DNA of 64,000 nt from Deltaproteobacteria bacterium ADurb.Bin207. GTDB taxonomy: Bacteria; Myxococcota_A; Polyangia; Polyangiales; Polyangiaceae. Position 1 is the first letter of the stretch, and the number at the start of each line of letters is the position of its first letter. The stretch is from NCBI GenBank assembly GCA_002070115.1, contig MWCO01000011.1:1-64000 (forward strand). Direction: 5' to 3'. Position numbers and translations under genes: made by a program. The notes beneath the pieces are model-generated. The model searched no databases and was not told the DNA's origin. It saw only the letters and a list, made by a program, of their open reading frames with translations. Of this stretch, positions 41,070 to 43,205 are shown piece by piece.

Positions 41070-41765
41070 TCAGACGAATTTCATTTCTGACTCATCGAGA
41101 TAGCGGGAAAGACGACCGACACTCTCGGCCAAGTGCTCGTTGAGCACACGAACCCCCGTGGGAATCTGAGGCCGAATCGGCGCGAAGTTCCAAATCACAC
41201 GGATGCCCGCTGCCGCCATCCGGTCGATGACCGCCTGCGCCGCATCCGCGGGAACCGTCACCACACCGAGCTTGGCACCACATTGCTGGATGCGGTCCTC
41301 GAGCGCATGCATCGGATCCACCGAATGTCTGCCAATCGTTCCACCCACTTTCTGTTGATCCGTATCGAATACCGCTTCGAGATGGACACCATGGCGCTCG
41401 AGAGTGCCCGAACGCACGAGAGCCGAACCCATGTTGCCCACGCCGACAAGGACAGCGGCGCGCTGAGTCTGCTCGTGAACGTGTCGCTCGAGAGCGGCAA
41501 GGACTTCGGCAACAGGGTAGCCGACATGAGGTTTTCCAATGATACCAAGGCTGGCCATATCCTTTCGGACCAGGGTGCCATCGACGTGGAGTTCACGTCC
41601 GCACGAATCTGATGAAACGTAGGATTTCCCGTTTTTCTGAGCGTTATCGAGAATTTCCCGATAACGGGCTAGCCGTCCGGCCAACGCACGAGATAGTTTT
41701 CGTGCTGGTCGAGTCGGCGATTCAGGGGTTGTGGGGTGCTGTGTGTCATGGAGCGTCTCAGTCAT
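41070..41765 (-). CDS. rex: redox-sensing transcriptional repressor Rex
   Basis: A 231-residue Rex. The N-terminal winged helix (SRALAGRLARYREILDNA, SSDSCGRELHVDGTLVRKDM) is followed by the NADH-binding Rossmann fold (AAVLVGVGNMGSALV). Rex senses the NADH/NAD+ ratio and leaves DNA when NADH is high. ATG 41765 has GGAGG 5 bases upstream; an in-frame TTG just before it is less likely. A long upstream region with repeated inverted motifs (41798-42095) is the probable control region. Confidence 0.93.
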   Translation of the reverse strand: MTETLHDTQHPTTPESPTRPARKLSRALAGRLARYREILDNAQKNGKSYVSSDSCGRELHVDGTLVRKDMASLGIIGKPHVGYPVAEVLAALERHVHEQTQRAAVLVGVGNMGSALVRSGTLERHGVHLEAVFDTDQQKVGGTIGRHSVDPMHALEDRIQQCGAKLGVVTVPADAAQAVIDRMAAAGIRVIWNFAPIRPQIPTGVRVLNEHLAESVGRLSRYLDESEMKFV

Positions 41766-41797
41766 CAAGGCCTCCGGTTCCGCGGTTCATTATCCCC

Positions 41798-42095
41798 TCG
41801 TCACGAATCCGCTTTCCAAGGAACCTTAGTGCCGTTTCGAGACGGATCAAGCAATTGCGACATGCCCCCCGCGTTCGTCACGAAATACTCCCGCACCATA
41901 GGCAAGTTATTGAATTTACACGATATTTCGTGTAGCAAAAACCATCACGAACCCGCTTCACGATTTCGTGAACCTGACCCCACCGCGCATCAATTGGATG
42001 GATTCGCACTTCGACAACAACGGATCAATGCAGGCAAAGCGCTCGATACAAGCTTCGATACAAGGGTTTTGTCACGAAAAAAAGTGGCGTGAACG
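41798..42095. promoter_or_regulatory. cluster of CACGA/TCGTG inverted motifs upstream of rex
   Basis: In the 378-base gap before rex, TCACGAA-type elements occur at 41801-41807, 41874-41884 (TTCGTCACGAA), 41917-41934 (TACACGATATTTCGTGTA), 41945-41951, 41957-41972 (TTCACGATTTCGTGAA) and 42072-42078, plus a near match GCGTGAA at 42088-42094. Two are perfect inverted repeats with 4- and 2-base centres. No gene is present in the gap. The Rex consensus in other bacteria is TTGTGAA-N-TTCACAA; one half-site here differs from it by one base, but the arm order is reversed. The binding protein could be Rex itself or another regulator. Confidence 0.55.
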
Positions 42096-42143
42096 TCGCG
42101 AATTGCAGTTCCTCATTCGCACCCGCGAACACTGAATCCCGCT

Positions 42144-42980
42144 TCACTTACACACGTTCGACACACAATCCTTCCCACCAGGACAGTCTTGCTTCTTCGT
42201 ACATTCAGGCGCTGCCTCCGCCTGGCTCATGCATATCTTATCCTTACAAACCGGAATCCGAGCATCAATGAGCTTACACGACATATCATCCGTACACGGA
42301 TAGCGGCAATATCCCTCCACGCAAGCTTGATTCTCACCGCAAACCGAAGGGTCCTTCGCACATGGCCTGACAGGTTGCGGGTCCGCAATGCAGGTGCCCG
42401 TAGGCGCATGGCAAACCTCGCCCGATGCGCATTCCGCAGTAGTTTCGCAGGTTCCTCGACATACCCCCTCCACACATACGAGCCCCCCGGGGCACGGACT
42501 TGCACCACCACATCCTGCCGTACTCGAGTCGATCTCGCATACACCAATGGCGTTACAACTATACCCATCCGGACATGGCACTAACGTGTCGCACCCAACC
42601 ACGCATCTTCCGTTGACACAGATGCGCGACGCTCCACATTCGGAGCTGAACTCACACGGCACCAAACACACACCGTCGAGACAAGTATATCCTTCGTCGC
42701 AATCGCTCTGCCCACCACAGGGACAAAGGGCCGTCGAAGGATCGCAGAAGGGGGGGGACTGGACATCCGGCTCAGGACTCCCCGAATCCACCGCTCCCCC
42801 CGCCGTCCCTCCGGAACCCGTCACCGACGGTGACGCGGGACGACAGCCATAAGCATCGCAAATGCGACACCCTGCCTCATCACAAATCATCTCCTCGTGA
42901 TTGCTTCCACAGCCTCCCAGGCCTCCACCAAGGAAAGCACTCACAACCATTACCGAACCAATCACTATCCACCGAGGCAT
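42144..42980 (-). CDS. Cys-rich lipoprotein with repeated Cys modules
   Basis: A 278-residue surface protein. ATG 42980 has AAGGAGG 5 bases upstream and opens a lipobox GGLGGCGS. After a Gly/Pro linker come at least five Cys-rich modules (CDEGYTCLDGVC, CVNGRCVVGC, CPGGLVCVEGVC, CGENQACVEGYC, CPGGKDCVSNVC). Such modules are shared with the secreted protease above and are common in myxobacterial surface proteins. They may form disulfide-stabilised stalks. Function unknown. Confidence 0.8.
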   Translation of the reverse strand: MPRWIVIGSVMVVSAFLGGGLGGCGSNHEEMICDEAGCRICDAYGCRPASPSVTGSGGTAGGAVDSGSPEPDVQSPPFCDPSTALCPCGGQSDCDEGYTCLDGVCLVPCEFSSECGASRICVNGRCVVGCDTLVPCPDGYSCNAIGVCEIDSSTAGCGGASPCPGGLVCVEGVCRGTCETTAECASGEVCHAPTGTCIADPQPVRPCAKDPSVCGENQACVEGYCRYPCTDDMSCKLIDARIPVCKDKICMSQAEAAPECTKKQDCPGGKDCVSNVCK

Positions 42981-43205
42981 TCGAACCTCCTTGGGGCACG
43001 CCCGTCCACCACTCTCCAAAGGACATGCCAAATAGGCGGTTTCCATTTCCTGACAGATTCTATCGTGCAGCGCCACTCCCCCCACCCCCACCTGTGAACA
43101 TCCCTGCTCATAGATTGTAATCTCTCATTCACACCGAGCGCCAACCTCCAAAACAGACCTTGCCGTCGCTTGACCGGTAGCCCCACGAAGGCTAGGGGTC
43201 CGAGC

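Follow-up and report, generated by a model that had tools for sequence, protein, structure and literature searches.

The locus described here raises the question of whether a cluster of short inverted repeats with the cores CACGA and TCGTG, located directly upstream of a redox-sensor repressor gene of a myxobacterium, acts as an operator, and for which regulator. The window, meaning the whole analysed stretch of 64,000 nucleotides, comprises bases 1-64000 of contig C11 in a draft genome of 6.55 Mb (G000), whose relatives are Myxococcota metagenome-assembled genomes. The repressor gene, rex1, lies on the minus strand at 41070-41768, with a likely ATG start codon at 41765. Its product possesses a winged-helix N-terminus and a NAD-binding Rossmann domain (PF06971, 7e-10, and PF02629, 9e-18, both above the cut-off), contains the motif GVGNMG, falls into the Rex equivalog NF003994 of NCBIfam (1e-54) and matches Rex structures of the PDB at 4e-28 by phmmer. 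It is one of three paralogues in this genome, the others being rex2 (C28:32642) and rex3 (C17:16026). The upstream neighbour is a Cys-rich secreted or lipoprotein-like gene on the minus strand (42144-43091), which adjoins rex1 in the same way in G015 and G022. Orthologues of rex1, 78-80% identical, are found in G015, G022 and G048, i.e. with the window genome in 4/317 genomes of the class, and in the tree a long stem separates rex1 from rex2. This rarity, together with the long stem, suggests rapid divergence, many losses or transfer.

The gap between the two genes (41769-42143, 375 bases) contains no convincing gene and directly precedes rex1, as the sequence-only reading had stated. That reading had counted six TCACGAA/TTCGTGA elements and one near match; the array itself is real, but the exact copies are five (at 41801, 41878, 41945, 42072 and 41965), and the CACGA/TCGTG cores number eight when TACACGA/TCGTGTA and TTCACGA are included. 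Both palindromes are present as described, TACACGA-TATT-TCGTGTA at 41917-41934 and TTCACGA-TT-TCGTGAA at 41957-41972, each with perfect 7-bp arms and an unmatched centre, and the order of their arms is indeed reversed relative to a Rex operator. The same gap also contains TCGATACAAG in two exact copies, 12 bases apart (42043-42064).

For the comparison with relatives, the 260 bases preceding the start codon were aligned for G000, G022, G048 and G015, and blocks of at least four invariant bases were collected. Six such blocks were identified on the minus strand: TCGTGA at -198 (41958-41963, inside the second palindrome), GTTTT (within a GTTTTT block at 41937-41942), CGTGAC at -118 (TCGTGA box at 41878-41883), CTTGATC, ACTA and GGAGGCC. 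The last three are read as a predicted -35 element TTGATC (41845-41850), a predicted -10 element of the form TA...T (TAAGGT at 41823-41828, assigned from its conservation and the 16-bp spacing) and a predicted ribosome binding site GGAGGCC (41769-41775), whereas a scan with the sigma-70 consensus missed this conserved promoter. The distal TCGTGA box is located at -198, -198, -197 and -203 in G000, G022, G048 and G015, respectively, and the proximal conserved box at -118, -119 and -118 in the first three, with CCGTGA at -124 in G015; random placing of boxes gave equal coincidences in 0.1% of trials (p ~0.001). The lack of conservation that the sequence-only reading had named as the finding against it was thus not observed. 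In the gaps of the three relatives TCGTGA occurs 5, 3 and 2 times against 0.2-0.5 expected. All three share a TCACGA in inverted orientation (-58 to -64) that lies over the predicted transcription start (near 41816 in the window); the window genome instead carries a TCGTGA box at -41 (41801-41806, minus strand), downstream of that start. The minus-strand boxes at -185 (41945-41950) and -312 (42072-42077) are confined to the window genome. The palindrome at 41917-41934 is not kept in relatives, whose TCGTGA boxes form no everted palindromes apart from one degenerate copy in G015, and the spacing and orientation of the non-conserved boxes differ between genomes. Judged by this alignment, the ancestral set consists of two or three boxes, the window genome has added the dense array and both palindromes, and its extra, non-conserved TCGTGA copies may be due to chance. 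Since two TCGTGA boxes are among the invariant blocks in all four genomes, the motif is regarded as a conserved control element of rex1, and the gap is very probably a conserved cis-regulatory region of this gene.

Rex operators consist of the inverted half-sites TTGTGA and TCACAA, separated by six bases, or of documented variants, of which TCGTGA is one; they are located at promoters of rex itself or of genes with a redox function, and here a conserved promoter and boxes precede rex1. No N6-spaced inverted pair of TCGTGA and TCACGA is present in the gap 41769-42143, however, where the best candidate reaches 9/12 matches, and for this reason the array is not filed as a standard Rex operator. 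The Rex operator (ROP) of Gram-positive bacteria, TTGTGAANNNNTTCACAA (PMC2883068, PMC5355995), has the GTGA core and the position upstream of rex in common with the array, whose half-site TCGTGA(A) is among known Rex sites; in contrast to the ROP, the array possesses no inward N6 pair, its half-sites are spread over ~270 bases and two of its pairs are everted. In Streptomyces avermitilis, Rex targets include TCGTGA/TCACGA half-sites, e.g. TCGTGAATCAATTCACGA, and Rex protects DNA having half-sites only, with TCGTGAA at one footprint (PMC5355995). Single half-sites, including TCGTGAA, which in the streptomycete lie in or beside Rex-protected DNA (cydA1, wblE, aveR; PMC5355995), are common to both systems; the streptomycete, however, has no more than one or two of them per site, as a rule next to a complete operator, while the array has eight cores and lacks a complete operator. 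The deviation by one base from the classic Rex half-site, pointed out beforehand from the window alone, is therefore not new, because TCGTGA and TCACGA half-sites are documented for this Streptomyces Rex (PMC5355995). The rex3-type operators of other Myxococcota, CTGTGA-N6-TCACAG, belong to the same layout family and the same gene class as the array, but differ in the outer base (T instead of C) and in the helix of the protein (AQLRRD instead of TLVRKD).

Within the clade, sites of the form TCGTGA/TGGTGA-N6-TCACGA have been identified at the promoters of rex2/[FeFe]-hydrogenase and [NiFe]-hydrogenase operons. The operons composed of a response regulator, rex2 and [FeFe]-hydrogenase carry TCGTGAAAAATATCACGA in G048 and TGGTGAGCAACATCACGA in G000, each just downstream of a TTGACA-type promoter; TGGTGAAAAACATCACGA is located upstream of a further [FeFe]-hydrogenase gene of G048, and TGGTGAGTTTTCTCACGA upstream of the [NiFe]-hydrogenase operon of G022. 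All four match the exact Rex layout, GTGA-N6-TCAC, and a near-standard site of this geometry, CTGTGAGGAACTTCACGA, is found upstream of rex1 in G022. The AQ(L/V)RRD-type rex genes of other Myxococcota, as well as rex3 of the window genome, are mostly preceded by (Y)TGTGA-N6-TCACA(R). As the rex2/hydrogenase sites have TCGTGA where the AQ(L/V)RRD type has (Y)TGTGA, the outer operator letter differs between Rex groups, and the half-site of the array is that of the Rex2 group.

Scans of the window genome for larger regulons were also carried out. The everted motif TTCACGA-N2..4-TCGTGAA, for which a genome scan had been proposed, has a single match in the whole 6.55 Mb, the window's own copy, and an everted-motif regulon was rejected. 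The related pattern ACACGA-N4-TCGTGT yields 17 sites at up to one mismatch against 7 for the control. With one mismatch, TCGTGA-N6-TCACGA gives 39 sites against 6 for the reversed-pattern control, and exact TSGTGA-N6-TCACSA gives 7 against 1, mostly intragenic; a large regulon of the former type was likewise rejected, since nearly all of its sites are intragenic, and the excess is read as an effect of codon composition. The rex2 promoter site is the only convincing promoter site of the TCGTGA-N6-TCACGA type in this genome.

The use of TCGTGA in operators of Rex geometry at rex2/hydrogenase promoters is among the reasons for reading the boxes upstream of rex1 as half-sites for a Rex-family repressor, Rex1 and/or its sister Rex2, through which rex1 would be autoregulated. 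We consider this the most likely explanation, at about even odds, and we infer from sequence comparison that a Rex binds here at all, which Rex it is and in which direction it regulates. At a low NADH/NAD+ ratio, a Rex dimer would occupy the weak half-sites around the transcription start (-41 here, -58 to -64 in the relatives) as well as the two conserved boxes farther upstream (-118 and -198), and transcription of rex1 would be damped; NADH would release Rex, which would result in autoregulation, and the extra half-sites of the window genome might raise local occupancy. The rex1 array would then most likely represent a well-known type of redox switch in an atypical arrangement. Several points count against a Rex: the window gap has no N6-spaced pair, operators of proper Rex geometry number only four or five, most motif hits in the genome are intragenic, the other boxes vary in spacing and orientation, the orthologues are only four, CRP/FNR-family proteins recognize the same GTGA core, and activators bind at distal positions such as -118 and -198 more commonly than repressors do.

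The last two points lead to a second regulator, e.g. a CRP/FNR-family protein or another dimer, which would activate rex1 from the TCGTGA boxes at -118 and -198. The sequence-only reading had proposed either such a protein or an uncharacterised variant of the Rex operator; TCGTGA in the rex2/hydrogenase operators and the two boxes kept in four genomes speak for this pair of proposals, while the non-conserved palindromes, the uniqueness of the everted motif and the missing N6 pair speak against it. We regard a second regulator as the main rival, possible but rather unlikely. The two conserved boxes have the same orientation, 79-80 bases apart, and their distances from the predicted transcription start, ~70 and ~150 bases on its upstream side, are typical of activators; the gap of the window genome is without a pair of Rex geometry, and inverted GTGA half-sites at N6 spacing, as in CRP/FNR-type sites, are not found in it either. 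Against such a regulator, no candidate gene for it adjoins rex1, nowhere else in the 1.24 Mb scanned (~19% of the genome) does TCACGAA occur more than three times per 300 bases, and the very same half-site serves in Rex geometry at the hydrogenase promoters.

That the palindromes act as RNA hairpins of a terminator or leader, and not as protein sites, is improbable. A 76-nt fold of the two reaches -20.1 kcal/mol (z -1.8), and a TTCACGA...TCGTGAA stem occupies the corresponding position in G022, but the z-scores are weak (-1.8, -1.4), the palindromes lie upstream of the conserved predicted promoter, conservation concerns the one-strand TCGTGA sequence and not the stems, and the -118 box is conserved even though it has no stem partner. 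A resemblance of the palindrome 41917-41934 to an NrdR box was considered and dropped as well, the internal spacing of the palindromes being different and no nrd gene being seen nearby.

With regard to random frequencies, the outcome depends on how the question is put: in Markov-1 simulations of the gap, five exact copies of TCACGAA/TTCGTGA were reached in 0/20,000, but ~1% of the simulated gaps contain five copies of one 7-mer or another, and in 1.24 Mb a 300-base stretch with five copies of some 7-mer turns up at 58 places (~one per 21 kb). Taken by itself, the clustering is modest evidence, and it is conservation in the relatives that makes the case solid. A chance cluster devoid of function, which such figures would allow, is highly improbable in view of the two boxes held in position in four genomes and the enrichment found independently in each relative.

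The proteins were compared in addition to their sites. Rex1 and Rex2 group together in the tree with moderate support (86/80) and have the recognition helix TLVRKDMA, in contrast to AQLRRD of the Rex3 type. In T. maritima Rex, we take R48, K49, R60 and G61 to be the conserved DNA-contact residues. In this numbering, the base-contacting R48 and K49 are kept in Rex1 and Rex2 (K49 is R in one Rex2), and the changes common to the contact positions of both are Q46L, R60P and G61H/K, with P60 and H61 in Rex1 itself. The wing residue R60 as the sole determinant of the T-to-C change was rejected, as Rex3-type proteins are also without it.

Most work on Rex concerns Gram-positive bacteria, as a rule with a single Rex that reads a single operator. 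It is tentatively proposed, and on balance unlikely, that paralogues split the operator alphabet in this one genome (TCGTGA for Rex1 and Rex2 with the TLVRKD helix, TTGTGA/CTGTGA for Rex3) and that a multi-half-site array, with no standard operator, serves Rex1 in its own control. Three Rex paralogues, two of them linked to separate [FeFe]-hydrogenase operons whose operator letters differ, would offer a natural test of how cross-talk is avoided, and a promoter of rex that relies on scattered half-sites would test Rex function without a full palindrome.

The surroundings of the other rex genes are as follows. At G000:C17:16026 (L086, 5959-11412), the gene order is rex3, a response regulator, nuoE/nuoF-like genes and an [FeFe]-hydrogenase; CTGTGAATATTATCACAG immediately precedes rex3, and the arrangement is a classic Rex/hydrogenase operon in a myxobacterium. 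At G000:C28:31907-33307 (L085, 9908-13391), rex2 is located between a response regulator and a gene in which an [FeFe]-hydrogenase domain is fused to a histidine kinase. In addition to the operator at the promoter, a perfect TCGTGAGATTTCTCACGA is present 188 bases upstream, within the preceding gene. In a further genome, a Rex with the wing GKPRVGY (G378:C4:10962, L154) has TCGTGGAGGGGATCACGA upstream, possibly another instance of the C-type half-site in a Rex that does not belong to the Rex1/Rex2 group.
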